DNA from: a virus
Strand: one strand, 5' to 3'
Length of the DNA stretch: 20,797 bases
Virus record (IMG/VR): IMGVR_UViG_3300042939_000055
Location: 1-20,797 of that record
Shown: positions 1 through 19,331 of the stretch, piece by piece
How positions within the stretch are numbered: position 1 is the stretch's first letter
Layout of the letters: each line of letters opens with the position of its first letter
Program-made: the position numbers and the translations under genes
The notes under the pieces: generated by a model
Told to the model about the DNA's origin: nothing
Database searches by the model: none
The model's input: only the letters and a program-made list of their open reading frames with translations

Positions 1-2778
1 GGTGCGCCGATTAAGTTCCGACATTCCGCTAATTAGACTATCGAGGTTTGCAAGTTCGGCGGCTTGTGCTGGCTCCGTTATCGTTTCCGATACTGCGGGT
101 TGGTAAACATACAGATCGCCTTGCTTGACATAGCCTTCTGGCAATGAAGAGTATTTTAGTTTATCAAAGACATCTGCATTTACTGGTTTATTTTCAGATA
201 ACGCTTTGTATAAAACACCTTGCTGAACTGATTCTCCACCATACGATTCAAGGTTTTGCGTAGCAGTTTTTATTTCACTTTCAATTTTTCTTCTGCGCTC
301 GCTTTGATTTAATTGAGCCTTTACACTTTTAGGAAACTCTTCTTTCTTTATTTTATCTAATTTGGATTCTGCATCTATTAAATTTTTTTGAGCCTTATTA
401 AATGTAGATTTATATTCTTCAAAACTCATCTGCTCTGGCTTCGTCACATCGCGCTGGACTGGCTCCGTTATCGTTTCCGATACTGCGGGGGCGGTCGCTT
501 GCACGGCCTCGGCAGCTGGTGCAGCTGCTCCAACTGGTTGTTCAGTTACCCCCGCTTTGAAAACATATTTACCACCTTCTTTAACATAACCTTTTGGTGG
601 TTTAGTTTTTGAAACCTTTGCACTCATTGCTGGAGCATTTGGATCACGCAATGTTACTGGCTCAATCCTTACTCCTCCAACTGGGTCTTTGATGTCGCCA
701 TCTCTGCCTCTACCTTTTTTTGGTTTCCAAGAATATGCAAACCCAGAATCAGATACATACAATTCCGCACTTCCAGTTGGCGTTTCAATTATGTCTCCTT
801 CTCGGAACCCTTGTTTTTCTAAATGATTTGTGAGTGATTCGTTTGTTATCTTTGAAGCCTTGAATACCCTTACATCCGTCGGGTCGCGTTGCGCATATCC
901 CAAGTCGGCGGCTTCTTCTATTGTTATTTCTTCTGGTGCAGCTTGCTCGGTGACTGGTGCGGGAGATACTACTGGATCACCTAAATGCGGGTATCTTCCA
1001 CCAGATAGTTCAAAAGGAGAAAGACCTTCTTGCGGGGATTGTGAAGCAATTGGAACTTCTGCGATCTTTTCGTTAAATCGAAAACGGATTACTTCTGGAG
1101 TAATTTCAACCGAAGCATTCTTTCCTTCTTCATATTCATTCCGAATCTCTTTTATTTTTTCTGCGTTTTCGGGAGAAACAAAAGCAATCTGGTCAGAGTA
1201 ACTTGTTGTTCCAGAGTATTTGTCTCGGCGTATCTTCCCATCTGGTAAAATATAATAAGTGCTGCCACGACTTGTTTTGAATGTTGTCGTTGCTACAGTT
1301 GGTTCTAACGCCTTTCGTTCTTTAGCTGTTCCGATTTTCGGATTACGAGATAGCTCTGTGTATCTATCAATAGCAGCAGCTTCTGGCGCGGCCTCTGCGA
1401 TGGGTGGCGCAACCTCTGCTGGTGGCGTGACTACTTGTTCTACTGGCGCTTTAGGCCTCACAACTGGAATAGGCGTGACTCCCGGTATCACTTCTTTCCC
1501 TACCATAGACACAGGAGGTTCTTCGGTAACTATTGGCTTGGCAGGTGCGGCCTCCGTAGGTTGAACTGTCAAGGATTCCTTGACAGTTGGCTCTGCGGGC
1601 GCGGCTTCTGGAGTGGTAATCGCTTTCGCCAATTCAAGCTGTTGCTTCTCTGCTTCTGCTACTGGATCAGCGGATTCAACGATACTATCTACTTGGCCTT
1701 GTGCTGCCGCGAGGATGGCTTCTTTCTCTTTGAGTTCCAACTTCAGCTTCTGCGCTATTGGATCAGTTGATTCGATAGCTTGTAAGACTTGCTTGGTATC
1801 CGCGATTTCTTGTTCTAACTTTTGCTTATTAGCCAGCACTGCTTTACCCTGTGGATTATCGTTACCGATAACAAGGTTTTCAGCTTCTTTGTTTGCACTC
1901 TCAGTAATCTTAGCTTCTTCAATTTGCTCTGGTGTAAATGGTGCAGCGATAGTAGTAGCCGCCGCGCCTGCCGCACCACCAATCAACGCTTCACCGATAG
2001 CCTGTTTAGGATTAACCTGTATTCCTTTTTCAGTTTCTATAGTGCCACCAATTTGTTCAGCAAAAGATTGCAAGCCCTCTGGAACACTTTGCCCAAGGAA
2101 TGAAGATGCAAGGCGTTTAAAGAATGGGCCAACAGCTTCCTTGCCGCCCGGAAGAAATCTTGTAGCAAAAGAATCTAATGCGCCAGATACAACGGCGGTT
2201 GATATAGCATAAGCCATATCCTCGTCAGTTGGTTCTGTGTAACCATTATTCTTGGCTCGTTCCAAGGCAACTGGGCCTACAACTTGCGCTGCCGCAATTG
2301 CTGCTGGGCCTACGAATTCTCCAGCCGCGCCACCTATTGTGCCTCCTGTTGGGCCAAGCAAACCTCCAACTCCTCTACCAATAAATTTTCCAACAATTCG
2401 TGATCCAATGCTATAAAGAATCTGACCAGTCTGTTCAGCAACCGCTCTTGGAGCATACTGAGGCGCAAACCCTGCAATCTGGAACTCACCTTCTTGTGGC
2501 TCCATGAATCTTTGACCAGCAGAAACATAACCTTCTGGTTCTTGAATCGCACCCTTCAATGCTGTAGCTACTGCGGGGAACCCAGCAACTTGTGCCGTCT
2601 CTCCCATAGCTTCAAGCGGTTGACCAAACGATTGCTTGAGTGCCGCTGGTATTTGCAAGATTTCTTGACCAATAGAAGTGCCTACTGGTTTTTCTATTCC
2701 AAGGTAAGCGTCGGGGTCGAATGGCGTTTCTTTAACGCCACCCCCTTCAGCAAGATAAGCGTCTGGATCAAAGGCCAT
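1..2778 (-). CDS. Large ejection-type (internal virion) protein, 3' end beyond window
   Basis: The frame is open from an ATG at 2778 to the left edge with no stop, giving 926 visible residues. The start lies four bases after the stop of the upstream gene. The protein opens with two copies of FDPDAYL (about residues 3-9 and 20-26), which I remember from very large phage virion proteins. Then come a Gly/Ala-rich hydrophobic stretch (about 120-160), a second Gly/Ala stretch near 270-285, a coiled-coil-like Glu/Lys/Gln segment (about 310-365) and a long Pro/Ala/Glu-rich linker (about 375-465). Near the visible end a GYVK-G-YV motif followed by PAVSETITEP occurs twice, 130 residues apart. No catalytic motif is recognised. 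Last place after two Ala/Gln-rich genes and an adaptor gene suggests a protein ejected with the DNA. An enzymatic domain may lie beyond the edge. Confidence 0.75.
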   Translation of the reverse strand, partial: MAFDPDAYLAEGGGVKETPFDPDAYLGIEKPVGTSIGQEILQIPAALKQSFGQPLEAMGETAQVAGFPAVATALKGAIQEPEGYVSAGQRFMEPQEGEFQIAGFAPQYAPRAVAEQTGQILYSIGSRIVGKFIGRGVGGLLGPTGGTIGGAAGEFVGPAAIAAAQVVGPVALERAKNNGYTEPTDEDMAYAISTAVVSGALDSFATRFLPGGKEAVGPFFKRLASSFLGQSVPEGLQSFAEQIGGTIETEKGIQVNPKQAIGEALIGGAAGAAATTIAAPFTPEQIEEAKITESANKEAENLVIGNDNPQGKAVLANKQKLEQEIADTKQVLQAIESTDPIAQKLKLELKEKEAILAAAQGQVDSIVESADPVAEAEKQQLELAKAITTPEAAPAEPTVKESLTVQPTEAAPAKPIVTEEPPVSMVGKEVIPGVTPIPVVRPKAPVEQVVTPPAEVAPPIAEAAPEAAAIDRYTELSRNPKIGTAKERKALEPTVATTTFKTSRGSTYYILPDGKIRRDKYSGTTSYSDQIAFVSPENAEKIKEIRNEYEEGKNASVEITPEVIRFRFNEKIAEVPIASQSPQEGLSPFELSGGRYPHLGDPVVSPAPVTEQAAPEEITIEEAADLGYAQRDPTDVRVFKASKITNESLTNHLEKQGFREGDIIETPTGSAELYVSDSGFAYSWKPKKGRGRDGDIKDPVGGVRIEPVTLRDPNAPAMSAKVSKTKPPKGYVKEGGKYVFKAGVTEQPVGAAAPAAEAVQATAPAVSETITEPVQRDVTKPEQMSFEEYKSTFNKAQKNLIDAESKLDKIKKEEFPKSVKAQLNQSERRRKIESEIKTATQNLESYGGESVQQGVLYKALSENKPVNADVFDKLKYSSLPEGYVKQGDLYVYQPAVSETITEPAQAAELANLDSLISGMSELNRRT
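69..99 (-). repeat. 31-bp direct repeat, copy B
   Basis: This stretch is identical over 31 bp to 459-489, exactly 390 bp away. On the minus strand it encodes PAVSETITEP inside the giant protein. It contains one copy of the TATCG-N4-CGATA dyad. Confidence 0.9.
78..93. repeat. TATCG-N4-CGATA dyad, copy 1 (in coding sequence)
   Basis: The plus strand reads TTATCGTTTCCGATAC. It lies inside the giant protein gene and within the 31-bp repeat. The dyad core is intact and the outermost pair is broken. Confidence 0.6.
459..489 (-). repeat. 31-bp direct repeat, copy A
   Basis: Identical to 69-99 and in the same reading frame. The surrounding protein repeat (GYVK-G-YV and then PAVSETITEP) is diverged outside the 31 bp, so the exact DNA identity is local. 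It could reflect recent duplication or gene conversion, or selection on the DNA itself. Confidence 0.9.
468..483. repeat. TATCG-N4-CGATA dyad, copy 2 (in coding sequence)
   Basis: The sequence is the same as copy 1 (TTATCGTTTCCGATAC), inside the other 31-bp repeat. It may be a by-product of the protein repeat and not an independent site. Confidence 0.55.
1564..1588. repeat. 25-bp perfect inverted repeat in coding sequence
   Basis: The arms are AACTGTCAAGGA (1564-1575) and TCCTTGACAGTT (1577-1588) around one central T. All 12 bases of each arm match. It lies in the Pro/Ala/Glu-rich linker of the giant protein and encodes TVKESLTV. In mRNA it would form an 11-bp stem with a three-base loop. 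No T tract follows on the minus strand, so it is not a standard terminator. Confidence 0.85.
1856..1871. repeat. TATCG-N4-CGATA dyad, copy 3 (in coding sequence)
   Basis: The plus strand reads TTATCGTTACCGATAA, a full six-base-arm copy identical to the one at 6302-6317. It encodes VIGND in the giant protein, just before the coiled-coil segment. Confidence 0.65.
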
Positions 2779-2782
2779 GTAA

Positions 2783-4117
2783 TTAAATTCCTAATCTTTG
2801 TTTGATTTGCTTTGCGCGAGGATCATTTGAATTCGCGTTAGCCCAGTCTAATGCTTGTTGATCCATTGGCGAGAGTTTTTTTACTTCTGTTTTCTGAAGA
2901 TTTTTTGATGCAGACAAATTCAATCCCGTAGAGTCAGCGATAGCTGGAACAGTCTGAATTGTTTGGATCATCTCATATTGTGCTTCAGTAATTGGAATTG
3001 GAGTTGCGCCTTCCCGTGGGATAACAACAAATGGGAATTTGGATTTTGGCCCGTATTCTTTTTCTGGAACAGGAGCAAGCGTAGCATTTAGAATGCCGCC
3101 ATTTTGCTGAAAGATTTCTTTGAACGTAGGAAGATCAGCAGCAGGTCGTTCTTTAGATAGCTTGGATGAAGAATCTCTAAGCTTAGAAATAAACTTTTGG
3201 TTATCTGCATATTGTTGCTCTCCAACTTTTACAAATTCTTGTGCAAATGTTTTGCGAACAGTTGGATCATCATTCGTTCCACTCGCAGTCATCTTGATGC
3301 GAACTTGCTCATTTACTTTAGGAACACCGATGCTCCCAATATCAATTCCATATTCGCCAAGATCAATCTTTGCTTCTTCGTATTTAGAAGCACCCGGATC
3401 AAATGCTACAGATTGATTTGCTGCTTGAACTTTTTGTTGTGCAGGCAATGCGTTAAATCCAGCAACATTTGCAACTGACGCTTGCTTGTATGTAGGTAAT
3501 TTAGCGAATGCTTGTTGTGCTGCTGCCGCTTCTTTTGTCGGGCCAGCCATATCTGGTTGTTGCATTTTAAATGGTTTGCCTTCTGCACCAAGTTGCGCTG
3601 CTCGTTCTTCTGGGGTTAATACTGGTTCCATTACTGGCAACCCAGACATCTCATCTACAGGTTGAGTAAAGTCAGGTTCGCCCATTATTGCTTGCTCTGC
3701 CGCTTGCGCTCCAGATATTTGAGATTCACCCCCACCGCCACCATACCTCGCGTTATACATATTTTCACGAACGCGAAGTTGTTCTTTTTTATAGAAATCA
3801 TTTGTTGCAAGTTCTATTCCCTTTTCAAATGCAGGTATAGCTTGCCTCAAATTTGGATTATTCATTACAGATGGATCAGTCAAGAATGGCATCAGCTTCG
3901 CATACGCCTCACCAGTCTTCCCTGATCCAGCAAGGCTCATCGACTCCTGCATACTCTGCTGCAAGAAGGGTAGCATAGCTTGTGCTTGCTTCTGCTGTTC
4001 TTGCTGCGCTAAAGCTTGTCCTACATTCTGACCAAGTTTAGCCAAAGAATCTCCAACCCATGCGGTAGATTCCGATGCGCGGTTGGTTCCTGTCATTATG
4101 AGTTCTGCGATAGACAT
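2783..4117 (-). CDS. Putative internal virion / DNA ejection protein, 444 aa
   Basis: The protein is rich in Ala, Gln and Lys. Residues 30-60 are helical and Gln-rich, and a Gly run lies near 126-130. The C-terminus (SPMDQQALDWANANSNDPRA, then KQIKQRLGI) resembles the short end helix common in phage structural proteins that warns of residues DPRAK-I-RLG. No enzyme motif is seen. The ATG follows the previous stop directly (TAATATG) and has no Shine-Dalgarno sequence. The position between a Gly/Ala/Gln-rich protein and the giant protein is that of podovirus ejection proteins. The functional call rests on position and composition, not on a recognised domain. Confidence 0.7.
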   Translation of the reverse strand: MSIAELIMTGTNRASESTAWVGDSLAKLGQNVGQALAQQEQQKQAQAMLPFLQQSMQESMSLAGSGKTGEAYAKLMPFLTDPSVMNNPNLRQAIPAFEKGIELATNDFYKKEQLRVRENMYNARYGGGGGESQISGAQAAEQAIMGEPDFTQPVDEMSGLPVMEPVLTPEERAAQLGAEGKPFKMQQPDMAGPTKEAAAAQQAFAKLPTYKQASVANVAGFNALPAQQKVQAANQSVAFDPGASKYEEAKIDLGEYGIDIGSIGVPKVNEQVRIKMTASGTNDDPTVRKTFAQEFVKVGEQQYADNQKFISKLRDSSSKLSKERPAADLPTFKEIFQQNGGILNATLAPVPEKEYGPKSKFPFVVIPREGATPIPITEAQYEMIQTIQTVPAIADSTGLNLSASKNLQKTEVKKLSPMDQQALDWANANSNDPRAKQIKQRLGI

Positions 4118-4118
4118 A

Positions 4119-5339
4119 TTAGTAAATCATACTTCCTATATTTCGATATGGGTTATATGCCGCTGAAGTTTGTTGCGCTTGTTGAGGACTTCCATATCCA
4201 CCCATAGCGGCGTATTGATTATAGCTAGGACCTTGTTGAGCCGCAGACGCATAACTTAAACCCATGCCAGCCCCAACACCAGCCTTACCAATATCAGAAA
4301 ATCCTTGGCCGATTGCTTGCTGTGCAGCGTAATTTGCGGCGGCATTCTCTCTGTTCACATTATAGATATTCTGCGCCTGCCCAGTCAATGCGCCAAAGTT
4401 TCCTTGGTTGATCTGAGAGATAAGACCTTGTTGTTCCATAGCATTTTGTATGCCATATTGTTTTACTTGGATGTCTTGCCCTCTTCCTTGCAACCCTATC
4501 CCCATCATTTGCGGGACGTTTTGAGTGAATGCACTAGCTAATTGCTGCCAGCTTTGGGCTGTATTTTGAAGTCCTCGGAAACCTTCAGAAAGTCCAATGC
4601 TACTTGTTGCCAGCCCCCGCTGCTGTTCGTTGACTCCGGGCGCTAATTGCATTCCAGCAAGAATCCTTGCTTCAGATGATAGTCTTAGTTGGTCAGCAAG
4701 TCCAGCCTGCGCTGTTTGGAATCCACCAACCCTGCCTGCTGTTACTGGATTAAACCCTGCACCTGACCTTTCTGCAATCGTTCGGTTGATTTGCTCTTGC
4801 TGCACTGGAGTAAGCTCGCCTCTCAACATACTGCCAACTACTCCCCGTTGCTGGTCAATCAATGCTTGGTTAGCTTGTAGCCCTTGGTATTGCTGGTTAA
4901 GGTTATTCTCCCACTGATTAAGTGACTGCATCGCTTGCGCTCTGGCCTGCGAAGACCCCGGAACAATTCTATCAAGTTGCTGTAAGGTATTAGCGGTTAT
5001 CTGATTTGCAGCATTTATGGATTCAAGCGTTGCATTCTGAAGATTAAATTCTGGAACGTTAAGATTGGGATTTATCTTTTCGATAGCAGACTTAACTTGA
5101 TTTTGTTGCTGAATGTATTGACTTGTTGCTTTTTTAAGCTGCTTTTGATAAGTCTTGCCCGCCTTACCTTGAGCTTTAGATGCACGATTTGCTGCCGAAA
5201 CATTAAACAAACTTGATCCTATAGAACCCAAGATTCCCGCGCCTCCAGCGGCCATTGCTGAACCAATCACAGGCAACGCATAAAACATCCTAGAGTGCTT
5301 ATCTCTAATTTTATTTTCTGGAAGTGTTAAAAAGCTCAT
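4119..5339 (-). CDS. Putative internal virion / ejection protein, 406 aa, Gly/Ala/Gln-rich
   Basis: Residues 20-48 form a Gly/Ala-rich hydrophobic stretch (LPVIGSAMAAGGAGILGSIG), which could insert into a membrane. A long helical Gln/Ala/Asn-rich body follows, and the C-terminus is a low-complexity Gly/Tyr/Gln tail. Podovirus ejection proteins of the T7 gp14 or P22 gp7 kind have this general make-up. The family link is inferred from composition and gene order only. The start overlaps the stop of the adaptor gene by ATGA (5336-5339), so translation is probably coupled. Confidence 0.7.
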   Translation of the reverse strand: MSFLTLPENKIRDKHSRMFYALPVIGSAMAAGGAGILGSIGSSLFNVSAANRASKAQGKAGKTYQKQLKKATSQYIQQQNQVKSAIEKINPNLNVPEFNLQNATLESINAANQITANTLQQLDRIVPGSSQARAQAMQSLNQWENNLNQQYQGLQANQALIDQQRGVVGSMLRGELTPVQQEQINRTIAERSGAGFNPVTAGRVGGFQTAQAGLADQLRLSSEARILAGMQLAPGVNEQQRGLATSSIGLSEGFRGLQNTAQSWQQLASAFTQNVPQMMGIGLQGRGQDIQVKQYGIQNAMEQQGLISQINQGNFGALTGQAQNIYNVNRENAAANYAAQQAIGQGFSDIGKAGVGAGMGLSYASAAQQGPSYNQYAAMGGYGSPQQAQQTSAAYNPYRNIGSMIY

Positions 5340-6298
5340 CGGTATAGGAAGTAATCGTTGGGTGATGGTGAAAGTAAATCAGAACCGATTAGGTTTTCTG
5401 GTCGGCTATAGTTTGAGAATCGAATTGGCGCGGCGGTTGGGATTTCCAAGTTCTCCATCTCCTTCTCTTGCTCTTGCACGGCCAAGGCCAAGTTAGACAT
5501 GAACTCTTGAGCCTTACGATTCTCCCGCGAGTTTAATGCAAGAACCGCATAGATCATTGCATCAGGAATAAACTCGCAGAGTTCCTTTGGTTCAGTTAGG
5601 TCAAAGTATTTCTTGGATGCGTAAAGTGTAATGCACTCGCAAGTCTTCGGAGCTTTGAACCTACGGAATGTAGGATTGCTATCATTGGGTTGATAGATTG
5701 CTATCAGCGTTCTTGCCTGCAACTCCATGTCGTAAGCATAAACGCGAATCCTACCTTTAGTTACTGGCTTGGATACTGCACGAACTCCCTTGATTAACAG
5801 GTCAGTCTTGGAGAGATTAGGACTCTGCGCGGCGAATAGATTGACCTTATGGTAAGTGTCGTATTGATCCTGCACTTCAAACATCAACTCTGTGCCTGCA
5901 TCTTCTATGTCTTCCGCAATGATTCCCAACTGGTATGGGTGTGTTGTGTAATCACGGAACAATACATGGAGTCCGCCGACTTCAACTATCCCCCTATGGC
6001 ATGAATTTTCTGCCCGAAGCGCAAAGGCGTTGGTCGCATTGAACCACTCGTCAGCAAGAGACGCAGAATCATCCCCGATCCAAGCAAGTTTAATTTGCTC
6101 GTATCGGTTAGGCAGCGTGAAGCAGTTGTTCACGCAGCAGATTTGGACATACTCTTCTTGAGAAGTCCAAGCTCGTTTATTCCATAGTAGTCGTCTTGCT
6201 TGGTTTACTGCTTTGACTCCGCGCTCGTATGAACAAGTTCCTGAGTCGCCGACAAACCCCTTCACAAGCTCTACCATCTCTTCGAGGGTATCGCCCAT
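5336..6298 (-). CDS. Putative head-tail adaptor / tail tubular A-like protein, 320 aa
   Basis: The N-terminal part has helices with a conserved-looking pattern (VKAVNQARRLLWNKRAW), then a strand and the turn FTLPNRYEQI. Podovirus adaptor and tail tubular A-type proteins show this kind of pattern: an early helix, a Trp, then LP-Y. The C-terminal part (about 250-290) is helical and ends in an unstructured tail. It has eight cysteines, including CC and CEC. The ATG is preceded by a dyad (6302-6317) three bases upstream in place of a Shine-Dalgarno sequence. It opens the adaptor-plus-ejection-protein block. A different structural role remains possible. Confidence 0.6.
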   Translation of the reverse strand: MGDTLEEMVELVKGFVGDSGTCSYERGVKAVNQARRLLWNKRAWTSQEEYVQICCVNNCFTLPNRYEQIKLAWIGDDSASLADEWFNATNAFALRAENSCHRGIVEVGGLHVLFRDYTTHPYQLGIIAEDIEDAGTELMFEVQDQYDTYHKVNLFAAQSPNLSKTDLLIKGVRAVSKPVTKGRIRVYAYDMELQARTLIAIYQPNDSNPTFRRFKAPKTCECITLYASKKYFDLTEPKELCEFIPDAMIYAVLALNSRENRKAQEFMSNLALAVQEQEKEMENLEIPTAAPIRFSNYSRPENLIGSDLLSPSPNDYFLYR

Positions 6299-6992: not shown

Positions 6993-8849
6993 TTAATTGA
7001 CGATATTATATTCCCAATATTTTTCTTGGCAACACAAAAATGGTTCGCATTCTTGATTTTCTTCTGGGCAGTCACCAACTGGAGAATCGTCGTTGTTTTT
7101 AATGTTCGCCATCAACCTCACTCGATCAATGGTTGCTGATCCAGTTAGATTGATTTTGATTTGAAATTCACTTCCTTCTACTGATGGGATGCCAGCCAAG
7201 TCATTGCACTCACTTGGGTCTGGTGTGTTAAACTTATAGCGTTTGTAGCGATTACCACCCCGCTGCGGGACACATTCAGTCACCACCGGAGAACATGGAT
7301 TGCAGCCAAAAGTAGTAGGCACTTTAAGTTCCGACCAGCAAGGATTGCTGTCTGCGCGAAATTCAACAGAACTTTCTACTTCTCCCTTAATCTCACTCAT
7401 CCACATTTCTCCACCAGTAATTTTCTTACGGAGGAACTTGTTTGTTGCTCCGCTTCGGTTGAAGTCATACCTGCCAGTAGTGAAGAAGGATTCAATCTGC
7501 CTTGTTCCGTTTGGGCCAAAGTCATCAGTTTGTTCTGATGTTACTTCATACAAGCGATTTTTATTGTCGTTATCAAATGAGAAAGCGAACCCACGCTTCT
7601 GTCCAGCTATCAATGCTGATAACATTTGAGTAGGTCGAATACCAGTCCATAGCCCGTTCCAACGGAATGTCAGTTGAGCGTCCGGTGCTGGAGATGCCGA
7701 CTGGTCAAGATCAAGCGCGATCATCCCACGATGATACCTATGAAGTCCGAGTGCTGATGTTCTTTTAATCTCAGGAGCAACTGTGCTTAATAGGTAGTTG
7801 TCAAAAAACATTGAAGACGCAAACTGTCTAAGCCAAGGCGTATCACGTTCCACCCATTTGTTTACCTCTCTCGATAGTTTACGAAGTGAGAAGTATCTAT
7901 TAAACTCAGATTGAGTATTTGAATAGAACGCCCAACCATCGTGTGACCTAAACCAAAGCTCAGAGTTTACCAATCCCAAGTATGGGCTTGTGCATCCGCG
8001 CCCAAGAAGACTAATACGTTGGATGTTTGTCGTATTCCATTGCGCTCTTGGGATTGATACATCCATTGCAAACGCTCCATTGCCAGTTAAGACTACAAGT
8101 TGACCTTGGCCGCGAAGGTTCAACCCAAGCTCTGGCATCACTTTCATGCCAGTGATATTTCCCATCATGCTTGGAGTGGAAAACGCCCCTCCCAATTCCC
8201 AGTAAGTTATCTCGGTGAATCTACGGGTGTTGGTAGTATCAGTAAATCCAGCACCAAAGATAATGTCAGATGCGTAGATTTGGTTAAATCTATCGGATAC
8301 GAATACACGGCCAAACGCATACTCCATGATCGTGCCAATCGGCATTTCTCGATTGAATGGATTCAGCCTCACTGCGTTGGTATTAAGATCGCCATTCCAT
8401 GCAATCGGGTTTTGGTATCCGTTCTGGATGTAGAGTTGGTCTTCAGCCTGCACGAAAAAGGTGTGCATCAGGCTTCCATCATTCCATGTCCACCCATCTG
8501 CTACTGGTAGTTTGTAGGCGTAAGCAACATTGTTTACGATCTTCAGAAAGTAGATTACCCCCGCGACTGATATTACTATTCCATCAGCAGATTCGTATGT
8601 TGTCCTCCGATATGGATACGCGCCTTGGAAGTTTCCAGTCTGAATATCGTTTACGATAGTCTCTGGTTGTCCCACTCCCGCTACGATGTTGATATTCCTG
8701 ATACTTGGGCGAGTGCGGTTAATGCCGCCTCGGAAGGTTCTATTCACCGATTCGGCTACATACATCTCAGGCAAATACGATGGATGCGTTGCAGCGTCTT
8801 GCGCTATAACACTTGTGAATCCATCAAAGACTGATCCTTCTGCTGGCAT
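6993..8849 (-). CDS. Putative tail nozzle / stabilisation (tail tubular B-like) protein, 618 aa
   Basis: The size, gene position and beta-rich sequence fit the podovirus nozzle or stabilisation proteins, which are largely beta-propellers. Repeating patterns such as GVIYFLKIVNN, DQLYIQNG, GRVFVSDR and GQLVVLTGNGAFAM look like propeller blades. A basic helix (YFSLRKLSREVNKW) follows near residue 335. The C-terminal third contains a cysteine cluster (FGCNPC, TECVP, ECND, DCPEENQECEPFLCCQ). The ATG shares a base with the previous TAA (TAATG), so it is translationally coupled to the collar-domain fibre gene. I cannot assign a family with certainty. Confidence 0.65.
   Translation of the reverse strand: MPAEGSVFDGFTSVIAQDAATHPSYLPEMYVAESVNRTFRGGINRTRPSIRNINIVAGVGQPETIVNDIQTGNFQGAYPYRRTTYESADGIVISVAGVIYFLKIVNNVAYAYKLPVADGWTWNDGSLMHTFFVQAEDQLYIQNGYQNPIAWNGDLNTNAVRLNPFNREMPIGTIMEYAFGRVFVSDRFNQIYASDIIFGAGFTDTTNTRRFTEITYWELGGAFSTPSMMGNITGMKVMPELGLNLRGQGQLVVLTGNGAFAMDVSIPRAQWNTTNIQRISLLGRGCTSPYLGLVNSELWFRSHDGWAFYSNTQSEFNRYFSLRKLSREVNKWVERDTPWLRQFASSMFFDNYLLSTVAPEIKRTSALGLHRYHRGMIALDLDQSASPAPDAQLTFRWNGLWTGIRPTQMLSALIAGQKRGFAFSFDNDNKNRLYEVTSEQTDDFGPNGTRQIESFFTTGRYDFNRSGATNKFLRKKITGGEMWMSEIKGEVESSVEFRADSNPCWSELKVPTTFGCNPCSPVVTECVPQRGGNRYKRYKFNTPDPSECNDLAGIPSVEGSEFQIKINLTGSATIDRVRLMANIKNNDDSPVGDCPEENQECEPFLCCQEKYWEYNIVN
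8644..8659. repeat. TATCG-N4-CGATA dyad, copy 5 (in coding sequence)
   Basis: The plus strand reads ATATCGTTTACGATAG. It lies in the nozzle-like gene and encodes IVND. The 14-bp core is identical to the core of copies 6 and 7, and the outer pair is mismatched. Confidence 0.6.
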
Positions 8850-9943
8850 TATGTTTTGATAATGTAGTTCATCGCCACATTTTGAGGGCGAGTTTCTGTT
8901 TGTCCATCAGATGCTATTGTATGTTGGTGATCCGATCCACCAGATGAAGTTGTTCCAGAATAGGTGTGTGTATGGCGAGTGCTTGCGCCTCCTGTGTTAA
9001 ATGGGGCTTGAGAATTTCTTTGCACATCAGTTCCGCCGCCAGATTGCACGTTTCCAGTAAGATTTGTTTCAGAGTAAACATGGCTATGATCTGGTGAATC
9101 AACTCCAGTTGTTCCGCTAAATGAATGGGTGTGGGTTGCGTTAAACAACCCTGTATTACCACTGTGATTATGAGATTTGAATGCGTCTGCTTGAGTGGTT
9201 CCAAATGCACGGAGAGGGTCAATTCCCCTGCCATTATCAAATCCACGAACAAACATTCCGCGAAGATCAGGGACGGCAAAGTTTGTTAGTCCATCTCCAG
9301 CGCCATAGGTAGTTCCAATAGCAGAAAACAAGTTAGGTTGAGGGGATGGATCAAGTGCTGTTCTCCCATACAATGAACCATCGCAGATAACCCATCCAGA
9401 AGGCGCAGAGTTTGCGGCGAAAGGAACAATTGCTCCAGTTGGGATACCACCGGGAATCGTTGAGTTGAATTGGATATTCCCACTCAATACTTGCAAGAAG
9501 TCTCCATTTACTCCGCTCGCAAGTGAAAATGAACTGCCATTTTTAACCAAGACTCCGTTACCAGCTGGAAGGAGTGAGGCCAAATTACCAATCTTCCATT
9601 GAGTTCCATCCCAGTAAGCCAAGAAGTTATCGCCCGTATCAGTGGGTTGCCATTGTCTTACAGTTCCATCGGCCAAAAGAACCATGATCTTAGGCGCGAC
9701 ATCGACTGCGTTAAGTTGCAAACTAGGCAGTTTGATTGGTGATGTCAGTGATCCACTCTTCCAAGCAACATCGTTGTTTTGGTCATACTGGAGAAGAGAT
9801 ACTTCAGTTGGTTCCACCAATACCTTTTGGCAAGAAGCGTGATCTTCTACTACGAGTTTGCGTCCATCTGTAGTTGTTTCAAGTCCTTCGCAAAACAATG
9901 GAAACTCTGTGTCGCAAGGTGGGCAGTTTGTGCAGTCGCTCAT
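8849..9943 (-). CDS. Tail fibre with phage tail collar domain, 364 aa
   Basis: Residues 1-43 form a cysteine-bearing module (CPPC, PLFCE-LETT, VVED, CQK) shared with the next upstream fibre. Residues 166-235 match the phage tail collar domain: PTGAIVPFA, PSGWVICDG, the YGAGDG turn and VPDLRGMFVRG. The C-terminal part has five His-X-His motifs (258-260, 271-273, 286-288, 324-326, 339-341) in SGTT-type repeats. Such motifs bind metal along the axis of trimeric fibres such as T4 long tail fibres. The protein is therefore most likely a trimeric, metal-stabilised fibre that contacts the host. The ATG has no Shine-Dalgarno sequence. Confidence 0.88.
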   Translation of the reverse strand: MSDCTNCPPCDTEFPLFCEGLETTTDGRKLVVEDHASCQKVLVEPTEVSLLQYDQNNDVAWKSGSLTSPIKLPSLQLNAVDVAPKIMVLLADGTVRQWQPTDTGDNFLAYWDGTQWKIGNLASLLPAGNGVLVKNGSSFSLASGVNGDFLQVLSGNIQFNSTIPGGIPTGAIVPFAANSAPSGWVICDGSLYGRTALDPSPQPNLFSAIGTTYGAGDGLTNFAVPDLRGMFVRGFDNGRGIDPLRAFGTTQADAFKSHNHSGNTGLFNATHTHSFSGTTGVDSPDHSHVYSETNLTGNVQSGGGTDVQRNSQAPFNTGGASTRHTHTYSGTTSSGGSDHQHTIASDGQTETRPQNVAMNYIIKT

Positions 9944-9960
9944 AATATTTTTTATGTAAA

Positions 9961-10851
9961 TTAAACAACAATACGCAGTTCGCCAGTTGATGTTTTGTAA
10001 ACATCATCAGCAACTAATCCACCAGTAATTGCAGCGGCATTCGTTGCATAAGTTGGAAGACCTTGTAAACGAAGTGTTCCATTTACATGAAGTTTTTTTT
10101 GCGGAGTAGAAGTTCCAATCCCGACATTACCCGCGCTTGCTACACGCATCTGTTCAGCATTGTTTGATTTTATGATGAGCGGATGCGCTGAAGATGTTCC
10201 CACTTCAGCCTGCGCGTTCTGTTCTGCCGTAAGATCAACTGAAACTCCACCTTGAGTAGCGATATATGAAGATGAAGCTGCGCTAGACGTATCAGTATTT
10301 ACTACTCTTACTGCTGTTTGCGCTGCTTGAGTTTGGGATACGTCTAGCTTTACTGCTGGAGAGTTCGTTCCAATACCTACACTACCATTCGTGTTCGATT
10401 GTAGGTTTACGCTCGTTCCATCAATCTGAAGGATAGCTGAGTTAGTAAAAATCCTTGGGGTAGTTCCTGCGGCTTGGATGCGAAGATCATAGTCATCCGA
10501 GTTTGGATTCTTCAAATCCATGTAAACATTTCCTGTTCCTCCAACCTCAATGCGGGTGTCGCCACTTGGGTTGTTTAAAAGCAATTCAGTTCCGCTGATA
10601 GAGGAGAACGCCACTCCACCAGTTGAATCTCTTTTAACAATTGTATTCGGAGTATTTGTGCTTACAGCTTGAGTAAACTTGATAAATCCATCCGTAACTA
10701 TCGGAATACTACCCTCTGTGCCCGTAAGACGCTTTTGGCAGAACAATGAATCCTCAACAACAAATGCTTTTGCTGTGCTTGTTGTTTCAAGCGGTTCACA
10801 GAATAATGGATAGTCTGTTTCGCAAGGAGGAGCTGGTGTGCATGGAGTCAT
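9961..10851 (-). CDS. Tail fibre protein with GIGT-P repeats, 296 aa
   Basis: Residues 1-42 carry the same cysteine module as the collar-domain fibre (APPCETDYPLFCEPLETT, VVED, CQK). The body is beta-rich and contains two GIGT-x-x-P motifs (159-165 and 244-250), each followed by a K-L-(D/H)-V strand. This pattern is common in trimeric phage fibres and in bacterial surface proteins. No intramolecular chaperone domain of the S74 type is seen, and the C-terminus ends at ELRIVV. The shared N-terminus suggests that both fibres attach to the same tail component. The gap to the next gene is 17 bases. Confidence 0.8.
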   Translation of the reverse strand: MTPCTPAPPCETDYPLFCEPLETTSTAKAFVVEDSLFCQKRLTGTEGSIPIVTDGFIKFTQAVSTNTPNTIVKRDSTGGVAFSSISGTELLLNNPSGDTRIEVGGTGNVYMDLKNPNSDDYDLRIQAAGTTPRIFTNSAILQIDGTSVNLQSNTNGSVGIGTNSPAVKLDVSQTQAAQTAVRVVNTDTSSAASSSYIATQGGVSVDLTAEQNAQAEVGTSSAHPLIIKSNNAEQMRVASAGNVGIGTSTPQKKLHVNGTLRLQGLPTYATNAAAITGGLVADDVYKTSTGELRIVV

Positions 10852-11160: not shown

Positions 11161-11523
11161 TTAATCAAGGAAACTTGCACTGACAAGAGAAATTTTAGGG
11201 TGGGTATAAGCAAGCCAAGCATTAGCAATACTTGCAGGATCATAATACCATGCGCGAAGATTGACTGACTTCCAATATGAATCCCAAACATAGAGTTTAT
11301 TCGCGCCAGTTGGGTATAAGTAAACTGTAACTGCATGACCCCAATCTTTGGTTTGGATTCGCAACACGCGAGCTTGTATCGCTTTTTCTCTAAGCCCCTG
11401 CGCCATTGCTATTGCTTCTGGTAAACAAGCGTTTTTGTAGCGCCCTGAGAACGATGGCTCATTAACCGGAAGCGTTGAGCATCCAACGAGAGCTAGTATA
11501 GCTATGGCGATTATGAATCTCAT
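11161..11523 (-). CDS. Lipoprotein with a Cys-His-Asp triad, transglutaminase/papain-like, 120 aa
   Basis: I chose the ATG at 11523 because it overlaps the stop of the previous gene by ATGA and opens directly on a signal peptide (MRFIIAIAILALVGCSTL) with lipobox LVGC, Cys15 being the lipidation site. After that come KNACLPEA (Cys33), WGHAVTVYLY (His63) and YVWDSYW (Asp81). This order and the flanking strands match small transglutaminase- or papain-like folds. In its lysis-cassette position it may cut or bind cell-wall or outer-membrane material, or act as a late exclusion factor. The enzymatic role is inferred from three residues and their spacing. A longer frame reaching 11631 is a shadow overlapping the YkuD-like gene. 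Confidence 0.75.
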   Translation of the reverse strand: MRFIIAIAILALVGCSTLPVNEPSFSGRYKNACLPEAIAMAQGLREKAIQARVLRIQTKDWGHAVTVYLYPTGANKLYVWDSYWKSVNLRAWYYDPASIANAWLAYTHPKISLVSASFLD

Positions 11524-12062
11524 ACCTGTTCCACCAAAAGATATGGAATCGTCTTCTGGTTGTATCGACTCATTTCTGAATAGACGAGGTTGATGAATCC
11601 GTCCCATTGTGTCGGGTAGATTGTTTGGCAACCAAGCGAGCTGGTTGTATTAAATCCCCCTTTGTGGATATTAATCGCGATCCCAAGCGACTCACCCTCA
11701 GAGTCTCTAATGACGGGAAGAGCCTCATTTGGCGTAGCAGGTCTAAGTGCTGGATACCCGCCACTCGGTTTACTAATTCCATGCTTACCTTTTTTGTAGC
11801 GATGAACACCCGGAATGAGCGAAGCCACGCCTTTTTTAAAGACCGACGGATCAGTGTTAGCGTTAAAAGTAGCATGGCACGATGGTGATAGTAAGATAAT
11901 GGCATCATCATATAAGTTTCGGTCGTTTTTTCCTTTTACTCCCATTGAATTGGCGTAATACCCTCGTATTCCAACCAAAACAACTCTATCTTCAATCCTT
12001 GCTTTGATTACCATAGCAAGGGTTTTTTCTTTAGCCTGTTGAGGTCTGGAATTTGGGAGCAT
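11520..12062 (-). CDS. YkuD-like (L,D-transpeptidase-type) cysteine protein, candidate endolysin, 180 aa
   Basis: The C-terminal half has the signature H-x(8)-S-x-G-C: INIHKGGFNTT, then SSLGCQT, with His133 and Cys145. That is the active-site layout of YkuD-type L,D-transpeptidases (HG...S-GC). The middle (VGIRGYYAN, NDRNLYDDA, FNANTDPS, PGVHRYKKGKHG) matches a phage branch of this fold that I remember as being annotated as lysis-related. No signal peptide is seen, so export would need a holin. It sits between a holin-like gene and a lipoprotein. It is the only plausible peptidoglycan enzyme in the window. Hydrolysis rather than transpeptidation is inferred from context. Confidence 0.78.
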   Translation of the reverse strand: MLPNSRPQQAKEKTLAMVIKARIEDRVVLVGIRGYYANSMGVKGKNDRNLYDDAIILLSPSCHATFNANTDPSVFKKGVASLIPGVHRYKKGKHGISKPSGGYPALRPATPNEALPVIRDSEGESLGIAINIHKGGFNTTSSLGCQTIYPTQWDGFINLVYSEMSRYNQKTIPYLLVEQV

Positions 12063-12232
12063 TATCCTTTACGAATTACGTTGATTAAACCAACTAATCC
12101 CAATCCAGCTACAAGAATCGCTTCTTGCAACTCCGGTTCGATCTTAACTCCAACTGCCGTAGCAATCAGAATCAATCCGCGCCAAGTTGAATTTTCACTC
12201 AACTTCTCTAACAATATTTCTAGTATTTTCAT
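12062..12232 (-). CDS. Holin-like small membrane protein 2, 56 aa
   Basis: The start at 12232 overlaps the upstream lipoprotein gene by ATGA and has an AAAGGA sequence 8-13 bases before it, one of the few Shine-Dalgarno-like sites here. A short helical N-terminus (MKILEILLEKLSE) precedes two hydrophobic stretches (RGLILIATAVGV and ILVAGLGLVGLINVI) split by the polar turn KIEPELQEA, then a basic end (RKG). The core is clearly related to the other holin-like protein. It may be a second holin, an antiholin or a pinholin-type partner. The stop shares a base with the next ATG (TAATG). Confidence 0.75.
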   Translation of the reverse strand: MKILEILLEKLSENSTWRGLILIATAVGVKIEPELQEAILVAGLGLVGLINVIRKG

Positions 12233-12387
12233 TTTTTTGTTCCTTTCGGTTCGGGTAGTTCGTATGTCAGCCTCCCGTAATCTGTTTCTAGCGATACTCC
12301 AAGCGTAGTGCATCCAGTTAAGAATGCAAGTGCAAGAAATACGAATGAAATTAAAATCATCCCAAGTGCAATTTTTTCTGGTTTCAT
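12229..12387 (-). CDS. Small lipoprotein, spanin candidate, 52 aa
   Basis: This frame runs from ATG (12387) to TGA (12229), with ATGA overlaps at both ends to the two holin-like genes. It starts with a positively charged tip and a hydrophobic signal (MKPEKIALGMILISFVFLAL), then lipobox LTGC with Cys26, and a short mature part of 27 residues ending in YELPEPKGTKK. Outer spanins of Gram-negative phages are short lipoproteins encoded in the lysis cassette, and this fits in size and place. It has fewer prolines than typical Rz1 and no partner inner spanin is visible, so the spanin role is a suggestion. Confidence 0.75.
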   Translation of the reverse strand: MKPEKIALGMILISFVFLALAFLTGCTTLGVSLETDYGRLTYELPEPKGTKK

Positions 12388-12563
12388 TTATTTTTGTTCC
12401 AGTTTTTTGCTATGACAGCAAGCGAGCCGATTCCAACAGCAATACCTACTAGCAGCGAAGCTATCCTTAACCAAGCCTCCACTTCTGGAAGCATTGATAT
12501 TCCGACTGAAGTTGCCGTTGCCAGCAATCCAGCAGCGCAAGCATTAAACGATGGTGTGTCCAT
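12384..12563 (-). CDS. Holin-like small membrane protein 1, 59 aa
   Basis: I chose the ATG at 12563, five bases after the stop of the preceding gene, over a longer frame that would start inside that gene. The protein has two hydrophobic stretches (AAGLLATATSVGISML and IASLLVGIAVGIGSLAVIA) split by a polar PEVEAW turn, and a basic tail (KNWNKNK). The pattern ATA-VG----PE-----A-L-VG--VG is shared with the second holin-like protein. This is the usual layout of small phage holins. The pair probably arose by duplication. Confidence 0.78.
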   Translation of the reverse strand: MDTPSFNACAAGLLATATSVGISMLPEVEAWLRIASLLVGIAVGIGSLAVIAKNWNKNK

Positions 12564-12980: not shown

Positions 12981-15491
12981 TTAGGCAGTTAGAAATGTCA
13001 TGACTGGAACTGTTGCAACGTGTAAAGCACGCGAGGTTGTGCCGAGAGTTTTCACGATGAACGCGCCCCAGTGCATTGTCGTGGTTGGATAGCCGGATGT
13101 TATGGTTAGTGGGGTTCCGTTGTTAATCGTAACGCGCAGCTCCGTCCCATTATAGCGGATGTCGACTTTTATCCATACGTTAGCTGTAATCGTAGCTGTT
13201 CCGGTAGAAAGAGTTTCGACTCCCGCCGATGTTGCTGCGGCGTAAGCGAGGTTGCCATTTATCATCATCCCAACTGATCGACGGTTTGCAAATGTTCCGC
13301 TGTCTGCGTATCCGCCAGCGTAAACCCGAAATCCCTCAGTTCCATCTGACAACGTAGGGATTCTGATATAAAACGACCCGTTAAAAACCGAGAACGCTTG
13401 AACAGTATTTCTATTTCGATCGCCAACCCAAGACCCACTCCCCGAAGCAAATACCGAATGACCCGCTGCGCCAGCGGCTGTTGACCCCGTGCTGAGAATG
13501 CTGTGATTCGGAGTTGTCCCCGAAGACGTGCCAGCGCCTAAGTCGGCAGTAGCACCAGTGCCACTCGTAAGACCAAGTGCGCCATTCGCAAAAATCGGCA
13601 CTTTTGTTCCGGCGAATAAGAGATTGACAAACGATGTGTATGGGTCTGCAACACTCTCGAGGTTGTTCGCTGCGGTCAATAATTGCTGCTCAACGTTGCT
13701 GGAATCCCGCACGAAGGGAACCCCTGATGACAAATACAAATCACCGATTTGAGGCGAGCCACTTACTGAAAGCGGCACACGCATTCTTCCCGAGAAGACC
13801 GCCAAATCCGCGTTGCCTGAACCGTCAAATGTTAGTCCAGAAGCACCAGCAAAGGCTCCAGATAGGTTATACTGAGCTTGGCCGCTGCTTCCTCCGGGCG
13901 TGCCTCCACCGCCAGATGGCCCTGTCGCGCCCGTCAAACCAGTAGCTCCTGTAGCTCCCGCGCCTGTAGCTCCCGTTGCTCCTACATTGCCGACTGTAAA
14001 AATAATAAATGCAAGATCGGCATTGTTTGGGAAATTGGTAGTTCCAGTGCCACCTGATGTGACAAAAGTTACTGGATATTCGACATATCCCGTTTGCAAT
14101 ACTGGGGTAGCAGATACAGTCCATTTCTGGAAATTGTTGCTATTGCCAATGTCTTGCAAAATGATTGTATCCCCAGTTTTTACTAATTGCAAAATTACAT
14201 CGACATCATTGTTGAGCGCGTCAATGTGGCTTACATTGATTTGCGTTGCGCTAATTTGAGTCGCATTATTCCATATAAGATGGGTATTGCCCGGATCGCC
14301 GCTTGTGATTGTGGTTTTTCCTTTGTATTCAAAAAAGTTGGAAGAAGATCCGCTTGGGCCTGTTGCACCCGTGGCTCCAGCAACCCCTGTCGCTCCAGTC
14401 GTTCCCGCTCCCGTTGCTCCCGTTGCCCCAATAATACCTGTTGCACCTTGGACTCCCGTTGCTCCCGTTGCCCCTGCGCCTGTAGCTCCTGTGGCTCCGT
14501 TTACTCCCGCAACACCAGTTGCTCCTGTGGCTCCGTTTACACCAGCAACTCCAGTAGCACCTGTTGCGCCATTTATACCAGCGGTTCCTGTTGCGCCCGT
14601 AGCCCCCGCGCCTGTCGCGCCTTGAACGCCAGTCGCTCCAGTTGCTCCGTTTACTCCAGCAGTTCCTGTAGCACCAGTTGATCCTTGGGTTCCAGTCCCC
14701 GTTGCACCTGTTGCCCCGTTTGAGCCAGAAACGCCAGTCGCGCCAGTCGCGCCGTTGACACCAGCAACTCCAGTCGCACCCGTGCTTCCTTGTATTCCTA
14801 CTCCAGTTGCACCAGTTGATCCTTGTGATCCAATTCCTGTAGCTCCCGTGGCTCCCGCGCCTGTAGCACCTTGGATGCCAGTTGCTCCCTGTGATCCTGT
14901 GGCCCCCGTCAATCCCGTTGCGCCTGTAATGCCAGTAGCTCCCGTGATTCCGCTTGCTCCTGTAGCACCAGCAGACCCAACGCCCGTGGCTCCTGTGGCT
15001 CCTGTTGGACCACCGCTTGGCCCTGTGGCTCCTGTAATTCCAGTTAATCCAGTAGCACCGCGAGGCCCAATGCTTCCAGTAGCCCCTTGCGACCCAACCA
15101 TTCCTTGCTGCCCAGTAGCCCCTGTAGAACCAGATGCGCCAATACCAGTCGCACCCGTAAGTCCTGTTGAACCCGTCAACCCAGTAGCTCCTGTAATTCC
15201 AGTTGCTCCGCGAAGTCCAGTAGCTCCCGTAGTCCCGTTAGTTCCCGCCAATCCTGTAGCGCCCGTAGCACCTAACCCAGTAGCGCCCGTTGCCCCAGTA
15301 GGGCCACCACTTGGCCCAGTCGAACCTGTGAGTCCCGTAGCACCCGTTGCTCCGATACCAGTCGCACCAGTTGCTCCGCTTGCGCCAATAGCCTTTTGCG
15401 CCAAGCAAGCTGAATGCGCTGCACTCTCCGCACTTTCTTTAGCAGACCTTGCATAAGATGCAACAATAATGGTTTCGTTACAGCAACTCAT
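12981..15491 (-). CDS. Collagen-like tail fibre with C-terminal lectin-like domain, 836 aa
   Basis: The N-terminus ([20 protein letters not shown], then an Ala-rich helix with a further Cys) probably anchors the fibre. Residues 36 to about 380 are Gly-X-Y triplets, mostly Gly-Ala-Thr, with occasional GPSGGPTG-type units. A beta domain follows (about 385-490), then a short second Gly-Ala-Thr stretch (about 500-530) and a C-terminal part whose last 190 residues have the strands of a concanavalin/LamG-like lectin fold ([31 protein letters not shown]). The protein is likely a long trimeric fibre with a sugar-binding tip. The ATG lies six bases after a dyad. Confidence 0.88.
14350..15386 (-). repeat. 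Collagen-type Gly-X-Y repeat region
   Basis: About 115 consecutive nine-base units encode Gly-X-Y, mostly Gly-Ala-Thr with Gly-Val-Asn and Gly-Leu-Thr variants. The third codon positions differ freely between units, so the array is old at DNA level although some blocks such as [12 protein letters not shown] recur. The opposite strand gives open Pro-Val-Ala frames, which are artefacts of the repeat. Confidence 0.9.
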
Positions 15492-17865: not shown

Positions 17866-17884
17866 ATATTTTATTTAAGGTTGT

Positions 17885-17911
17885 GGGGAGAGGCTTTAAT
17901 AGCCCCTCCCC
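17885..17911 (-). terminator. GC-rich hairpin after the capsid gene
   Basis: On the minus strand GGGGAGGGGCT pairs with AGCCTCTCCCC over 11 pairs with one G-U pair and a five-base loop. No T run follows, so it may protect the 3' end of capsid mRNA or slow the polymerase and not fully terminate. Confidence 0.6.
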
Positions 17912-17921
17912 TTATTTAACT

Positions 17922-19331
17922 TTAGGAAGGCACAACAATGTCACCCACACCAGCGCAGCTATAGCAATCCTGATTGTTCTCAGGAACGATGTAGCTTTGA
18001 ACTGGGCAGCAGGAACCGTAGAGGTTTTTGCTTTGTGGCAAGCGATGCAAGAACGTGTGTATGATGGCTGGGTCTTTGACCTGTGCGGCCAGACGGAACT
18101 GGGCTTGATAGAAGCCCGATTTGCGCCAGCGGTTGCACTCCCAATCTGGGTTCTTCCATTCCCAATCGCCAGCGTAGTTCTGGGTCATCTGTTGGGCTTG
18201 GCCGTATCCAGTCGAGGATGGCATTGTCCATTTGCACATTGCTTTGTTCACCATAGCAACCGAGATACCGAAGTCGGCAGTGCGGTAAGCTTTGTTAGGA
18301 ACATAAGCACAGCCGTTTTCAAGGACTGTCTTGATGTAACGAGGAACGCGAACGAGACGTGCCCATGTTGCAGGATCAGCTTCGTTGAACGTAGCAAGAC
18401 CAGCGTTGAAGGCAGTGTCGGCGTTGAAGCGAGCCGAGTTGATGTCGTATCCGAAGGCGTAGTCACCGATGATGCGGTTGATGCCGAGTTTCAGACGAGT
18501 AAGACGCTCATCGAAGTCGGTGTTTGCATCCCAGTAACCGTTATTGCGCTTGGCTTGGAAGTAAAGCGCACGGCCCACTTGAGGATCAGGGATAACGATG
18601 TCGAGCAATGGCTGACCAGTCGCATCTTGGAGATCAAGGCGGAAAGCGTCATCTTCGTCTTGGAGGTCAACGAGTGCGTCGTCGAGCATATCAAGCGAGA
18701 GATAAGCGATCTTGTTGAGATCAGCAGGAGCGAGCTTAACGCGAATCGCGCAAAGGTCGTAACCAGCTTCATTGTTGATGGTATGCTCAGGAACGAACCA
18801 TGCTTGGTCATCGACCAAACCGCAATAGGTTCCGTCATCCGTGGTGATGCCCATCCATTTGTGTCCAGCACCGCCGATGTAGTTGGAGCGAAGGAACTCT
18901 TCGTGGACGTTCTTGGTGATGCGAGCATTCGACTCCTCGAACTGAAGGATTTCTTCAGCGGGGAAGAGGCGATAGAGAAGGCTCTCAACGCAAATCCAGT
19001 CGGTCGTCATCTCTTTACGGAGAAGCTCGAAAGTATAGCTCTCAGTGCCGGGACGCTGAATGACTTCGGGCTTGCTATCGCAAGAATCAGTCTCGCAGTA
19101 GGTGTCGGTGATCGCACGGAAAGGAGTGCAAGGATCGTGGAATCCACGGCCAAAGCGGAATGCTTTCTGTTCGGTTGTATGATTCAAGGGCCATGATTGC
19201 TCCTCGAAACGTGTGAAATATGCAGAGTTGGTGACGAGCTTCTTTACATAGAGGTCGTTGAAATACTCGCGGCCCTCGCGGAAGAAACTGTCAATCTCAG
19301 CACAAGAATTGAAATATAGTTGATCTGACAT
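17922..19331 (-). CDS. Probable major capsid protein, 469 aa
   Basis: The call rests on order and size: it follows a coiled-coil scaffold-like gene, has its own long leader, and precedes a decoration-type gene. The sequence starts MSDQLYFNSCAEIDSFFREG, is mixed alpha/beta throughout and has no enzyme motif or signal peptide. It holds 14 cysteines, four of them near the end (GSCC, QDCYSC). I did not recognise an HK97-type signature by eye, but divergent capsid proteins rarely show one. The ATG has no Shine-Dalgarno sequence, only an A/C-rich leader. A long open frame on the opposite strand is a shadow. Confidence 0.72.
   Translation of the reverse strand: MSDQLYFNSCAEIDSFFREGREYFNDLYVKKLVTNSAYFTRFEEQSWPLNHTTEQKAFRFGRGFHDPCTPFRAITDTYCETDSCDSKPEVIQRPGTESYTFELLRKEMTTDWICVESLLYRLFPAEEILQFEESNARITKNVHEEFLRSNYIGGAGHKWMGITTDDGTYCGLVDDQAWFVPEHTINNEAGYDLCAIRVKLAPADLNKIAYLSLDMLDDALVDLQDEDDAFRLDLQDATGQPLLDIVIPDPQVGRALYFQAKRNNGYWDANTDFDERLTRLKLGINRIIGDYAFGYDINSARFNADTAFNAGLATFNEADPATWARLVRVPRYIKTVLENGCAYVPNKAYRTADFGISVAMVNKAMCKWTMPSSTGYGQAQQMTQNYAGDWEWKNPDWECNRWRKSGFYQAQFRLAAQVKDPAIIHTFLHRLPQSKNLYGSCCPVQSYIVPENNQDCYSCAGVGDIVVPS

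Follow-up and report, generated by a model that had tools for sequence, protein, structure and literature searches.

Which protein opens the host cell wall is the question raised by a run of five small genes in the window, here the whole 20,797-base virus record, itself a fragment of a freshwater phage genome. The genes lie on the minus strand within the fibre-gene region, start 5 bases after the end of the preceding gene and overlap in order by 4, 4, 1 and 4 bases (Table 1), ORF coordinates that bear out the order and the tight junctions described in a first-pass annotation. None of the five proteins had a usable match in Pfam or NCBIfam. Overall, the comparisons make it likely that the cassette is a holin-endolysin module, in which a 180-aa cysteine enzyme of the phrog_3000 family with a divergent YkuD-like fold is the endolysin, a 52-aa lipoprotein is an o-spanin-like component and a 120-aa lipoprotein is an exchangeable accessory. 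The lysis module was seen again on about 70–80 viral contigs, and its recurrence on ~80 contigs indicates that the arrangement is not due to chance.

Table 1. Positions of the cassette genes, of other features of the window and of features at related loci
Sequence	Feature	Position	Strand	Details
Window	Holin-like membrane protein 1	12384..12563	-	59 aa, two hydrophobic segments; no holin profile match
Window	Small lipoprotein, possible o-spanin-like component	12229..12387	-	52 aa, ~27 aa mature, lipobox LTGC
Window	Holin-like protein 2	12062..12232	-	56 aa, one strong and one weak hydrophobic segment
Window	Putative endolysin, divergent YkuD-like fold, phrog_3000 family	11520..12062	-	180 aa; His133, Cys145
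Window	Accessory lipoprotein, papain/transglutaminase-like	11161..11523	-	120 aa, lipobox LVGC; Cys33/His63/Asp81 invariant
Window	Collagen-like fibre protein	12981-15491		836 aa, long GATGATG repeats
Window	Tail/fibre-like gene	8849-9943		Cys-rich N-terminal region
Window	Tail/fibre-like gene	9961-10851		Cys-rich N-terminal region
Window	ORF antisense to putative major capsid gene	17883-19196	+	437 aa
Window	Putative major capsid gene	17922-19331	-	
L328	Phage_lysozyme N-terminal + phrog_3000 domain	4413-5735		
L331	Phage_lysozyme N-terminal + phrog_3000 domain	4413-5873		
L332	Phage_lysozyme N-terminal + phrog_3000 domain	4401-6155		
L338	Phage_lysozyme N-terminal + phrog_3000 domain	4413-6176		
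L340	Phage_lysozyme N-terminal + phrog_3000 domain	4371-6161		
L344	Phage_lysozyme N-terminal + phrog_3000 domain	2714-4450		
L351	Caspase (Peptidase_C14) + C-terminal phrog_3000 domain	3321-5660		Verrucomicrobiota
L374	Caspase (Peptidase_C14) + C-terminal phrog_3000 domain	3273-5594		Verrucomicrobiota
L375	Caspase (Peptidase_C14) + C-terminal phrog_3000 domain	142-2409		Verrucomicrobiota
L251	HNH-like endonuclease gene	4330-4860	-	

Small membrane proteins of the cassette

For the two proteins initially described as related holins, an alignment of 42 aa at 36% identity (pairwise E 2e-6) bears out a weak relatedness; holin profile searches matched neither the 59-aa nor the 56-aa protein. Both are small, have membrane segments and lie within the lysis module, and we infer a holin function for them from their size and hydrophobicity. 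The second also matches phrog_8494 (E 4e-5), a family with no assigned function. Among the 68 viral relatives with enough sequence upstream of the enzyme gene, the 52-aa lipoprotein was found there in 67, holin-like gene 2 in 58 and a homologue of holin-like gene 1 in 40.

The 52-aa lipoprotein combines a lipobox with a short periplasmic tail, as in the o-spanin of a two-component spanin, and its homologues are also present in cassettes that carry CHAP or amidase enzymes. No i-spanin (a membrane segment plus a coiled coil) was seen in the window cassette when its ORFs were read, and i-spanin candidates adjoin the lipoprotein homologue at two related loci (L288 and L178). These features suggest a spanin-like role, and the protein would most likely serve the outer-membrane step.

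The phrog_3000 family and its predicted fold

The sole family match of the 180-aa protein was to phrog_3000 (E 3.5e-13), whose profile was matched by all 28 of 28 diverse family members (best E 1.2e-35); no function is assigned to phrog_3000, whereas an endolysin role is proposed for it here. The relatives include at least 163 viral proteins and 88 from bacterial genomes (Bacteroidota, Verrucomicrobiota, Rhizobiaceae, Nitrosomonas and others), with distant members in two Bacteroides phages. A sequence search of the PDB returned no relative of either the 180-aa or the 120-aa protein. Across about 240 family ORFs the motif histidine was present in 240 of 240 and the motif cysteine in 239 of 239, in the context INIH[KR]xG...TSSxGCQT, and His94 was a third invariant histidine in the 28-member alignment. 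The proposed active-site residues, His133 and Cys145 in this protein and Cys33, His63 and Asp81 in the 120-aa lipoprotein, lie where the first-pass annotation had placed them, each set being invariant in its own family.

The same annotation had called the 180-aa protein YkuD-like, a label addressed by structure prediction. The AlphaFold model (mean pLDDT 89) found its best solved-structure match in the YkuD-type L,D-carboxypeptidase Csd6 of H. pylori, a weak one (E 0.017, probability 0.97, TM 0.43), and no other PDB fold match stood out; neighbours among viral models included one named ‘Lysin’ and DUF5675 proteins. The predicted order of elements (strand with the histidine, SxGC loop, strand, helix, strand) fits a YkuD domain, as do a histidine that precedes the cysteine and a nucleophile set in S-x-G-C. 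The motif of YkuD proteins and Csd6 is H(S/G/D)X14-19C (PMC4599014), with 15–20 residues between histidine and cysteine, whereas His133 is followed by Lys134 and is separated from Cys145 by 11 residues, with lysine or arginine after the histidine throughout the family. None of the 28 diverse members matched any Pfam family, PF03734 included, and a profile comparison of the family (hhalign) with LdtA/B/C/E and DpaA of E. coli gave probabilities below 1%. Canonical YkuD (PF03734) membership was thus ruled out by motif spacing, Pfam and profile homology. The part of the original label that stands is the one carried by the Csd6 fold match and the S-x-G-C context, and ‘divergent YkuD-like’ is the furthest that the model and the motif allow.

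A YkuD-type domain is among the predicted phage lytic domains, with 10 proteins in PhaLP (PMC8310338; PMC5017753). Those domains are members of PF03734, PF10908 or cd16913, whereas the 180-aa family is missed by Pfam. The literature searched, which included few subscription journals, held no experimentally proven YkuD-type endolysin, YkuD appearing there as a rare predicted lytic domain.

Role of the 180-aa protein

The position of the 180-aa gene is held by canonical endolysins of four classes in related lipoprotein/holin cassettes, namely CHAP (L178, L188, L283, L293), Amidase_2 (L288, L289), an M15/VanY peptidase (L185) and PG_binding_3 muramidase-type enzymes (L187, L172, L173). The capsid protein was 93–98% identical to that of the window in 15 of 20 long enzyme-bearing records, and the phages with replacement cassettes had a capsid protein unlike the window's; as they are distant by capsid, the replacement represents module exchange and not an isogenic swap. 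The location of the cassette inside the fibre-gene region would fit a virion-associated enzyme of the tail or fibre, cutting the wall at entry and not at exit. Such a role is highly improbable, however, given that the gene is tightly overlapped with a set of small membrane-protein and lipoprotein genes conserved on ~70 contigs and that ordinary endolysins replace it in related cassettes. Genes for other small membrane proteins, for lipoproteins or for Rz-like proteins also precede many diverged viral members; neighbours that are small membrane proteins or lipoproteins were not significantly enriched for these members (15/22 vs 12/29, p 0.09) or for the bacterial copies (15/68 vs 16/100, p 0.42).

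The first-pass annotation had named a canonical endolysin elsewhere in the genome as the observation that would speak against this enzyme, and, the window being a fragment, one was sought in relatives and was not found. CHAP, Amidase_2, Phage_lysozyme, M15_4 and PG_binding_3 were each without a match in the 20 long enzyme-bearing records (40–62 kb, which may be partial), and Phage_lysozyme, M15_4 and PG_binding_3 in Bdellovibrio phage phi1422 and the L144 record, with controls detected; PF09374 was used in place of PF05838, for which no control was detected. Pfam scans likewise gave no wall hydrolase for ORFs of 95–420 aa from four long records, nor among the 25 families listed, of 36, for the proteins of phi1422. 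In that phage gp76, ~45% identical to the 180-aa protein, is the last gene of a complete genome without a recognisable endolysin, though its flanking genes are unlike those of the window. An extra gene between holin and enzyme at four loci (L005, L251, L253, L264) was considered as a hidden endolysin and rejected, since the gene in L251 is an HNH-like endonuclease on the opposite strand and the other three carry a similar insert. The L251 gene lies exactly between holin-like gene 2 and the endolysin candidate.

Fusions in bacterial genomes provide a separate line of evidence. Six Pfam-confirmed loci, from Sinorhizobium/Ensifer, Rhizobium, other Rhizobiaceae/Hyphomicrobiales and a Nitrospirae MAG, encode a Phage_lysozyme domain fused to a phrog_3000 domain, and one locus from a Rhizobiaceae-group MAG (L343) encodes a Glucosaminidase fused to it, the phrog_3000 domain being placed behind the lysozyme or glucosaminidase. 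Because these two wall glycosidases are unrelated, the fusions constitute strong but indirect evidence that the phrog_3000 domain acts on peptidoglycan. The lysozyme fusion of L332 (Ensifer) is followed by a gene for a T6SS Tle1-like phospholipase, and given this neighbour some of the lysozyme fusions may be interbacterial effectors. The Tlde1 effectors of the T6SS similarly have an altered LD-transpeptidase fold (PMC9638812) turned on bacteria, whereas nothing in the surroundings of the window gene points to secretion, and it is located in a phage lysis module. At three further loci, from Verrucomicrobiota, the phrog_3000 domain is C-terminal to a caspase, an unusual pairing of a caspase-like with a putative wall-active domain.

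The 180-aa protein occupies a slot held elsewhere by canonical endolysins, and no other endolysin is recognisable in the long relatives or in phi1422, which makes it unlikely that the protein is a helper that modifies the wall or cuts attachments, by lipoprotein release or stem-peptide trimming, with another, unrecognised protein as the main endolysin. Points that would fit a helper are that Csd6, the only PDB fold match, is a trimming carboxypeptidase and not lytic (PMC4599014), that some YkuD enzymes anchor proteins to peptidoglycan or detach them (PMC12729407), and that the lysozyme and glucosaminidase fusions would suit a helper domain as well. On inspection, the 180-aa protein had neither a signal peptide nor a membrane segment, which fits a soluble endolysin released by a holin. 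With slot replacement by four canonical classes, fusions to wall glycosidases and no signal peptide, the protein is best read as a putative endolysin, and the main idea of the first-pass annotation, that it degrades the wall, is supported by good comparative evidence, with its family label weakened and the second lipoprotein placed outside the core cassette.

As an endolysin, the 180-aa enzyme would build up as a cytoplasmic protein and reach the wall once the inner membrane is opened by the small holin-like proteins. Cys145, activated by His133, would then cut stem-peptide bonds of the peptidoglycan. The L,D bond of mDAP-D-Ala is the site of attack of YkuD enzymes, some of which have L,D-endopeptidase activity (PMC12729407). 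For the phage enzyme the most likely target would be this bond, joining meso-diaminopimelate to D-Ala, where it occurs within 4->3 cross-links; the enzyme would then act as an L,D-endopeptidase, and its cuts there would open the wall. The endolysin reading is directly testable through the two residues proposed for the active site.

These results give a likely function to phrog_3000, a widespread phage family with further members in the genomes of Bacteroidota, Verrucomicrobiota, Proteobacteria and other bacteria, and point to a possible additional catalytic class among endolysins. A wider claim, for which the chances seem evenly balanced, is that phrog_3000 represents a hitherto undescribed class of cysteine enzymes that cut peptidoglycan and have a shortened YkuD-like fold. 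In freshwater phages such an enzyme would work alone as the endolysin, and in bacteria from several phyla it would form part of lysozyme or glucosaminidase fusions, some of which may be interbacterial toxins. Such enzymes would cut cross-links by chemistry that bacteria normally use for making them.

The accessory lipoprotein and other features of the window

The lipid-attachment residue of the 120-aa lipoprotein, Cys15, was invariant in 20 sequences together with the Cys-His-Asp triad. Its model (pLDDT 87) had weak fold matches only, mostly to papain-like proteins (arylamine N-acetyltransferases, ubiquitin proteases, CPR-C4), and Pfam matches were at E 0.2 or worse. The proposal of a protease or transglutaminase-type enzyme thus retains its invariant triad, and its fold is indicated weakly. 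The place in the lysis cassette that the protein had been given at the outset proved not to be fixed: the gene was next to the module or close by at just 7 of 80 loci, and 21 of its 56 copies had no lysis genes within 2.5 kb, several of them lying beside glycosyltransferase, deaminase or structural genes. For the remaining 35 copies, lysis genes lay no more than 2.5 kb away, and the endolysins next to them were of several types. With this distribution the idea of a core lysis gene was dropped, and by its motif and its neighbours the gene is best read as a papain/transglutaminase-like moron, an exchangeable accessory that often accompanies lysis modules.

Enzymes of the MepS type are outer-membrane-anchored endopeptidases, and it is plausible, short of probable, that the lipoprotein acts on the envelope in lysis in a similar manner, as a papain/transglutaminase-like enzyme. 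The invariant triad with the lipobox cysteine, the weak papain-like matches and the copies near lysis genes agree with this, but the copies that lack a lysis neighbour and the majority of YkuD-like cassettes, which lack a nearby copy, do not. A superinfection-exclusion protein or other host-surface moron with no link to lysis is a tentative possibility, in keeping with the mobility of the gene among contexts; why it so frequently sits beside lysis genes would then have to be explained otherwise, and its similarity to the Cor family of exclusion lipoproteins was marginal and not significant (E 0.016, residues 1–44 including the signal peptide).

Three other features of the window were observed. 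A collagen-like fibre protein adjoins the lysis cassette, with similar proteins at related loci. Two neighbouring tail/fibre-like genes have similar Cys-rich N-terminal regions, a likeness in sequence that suggests a shared attachment module. The putative major capsid protein had no relative among named phages, and the long ORF antisense to its gene is probably a by-product of codon use.
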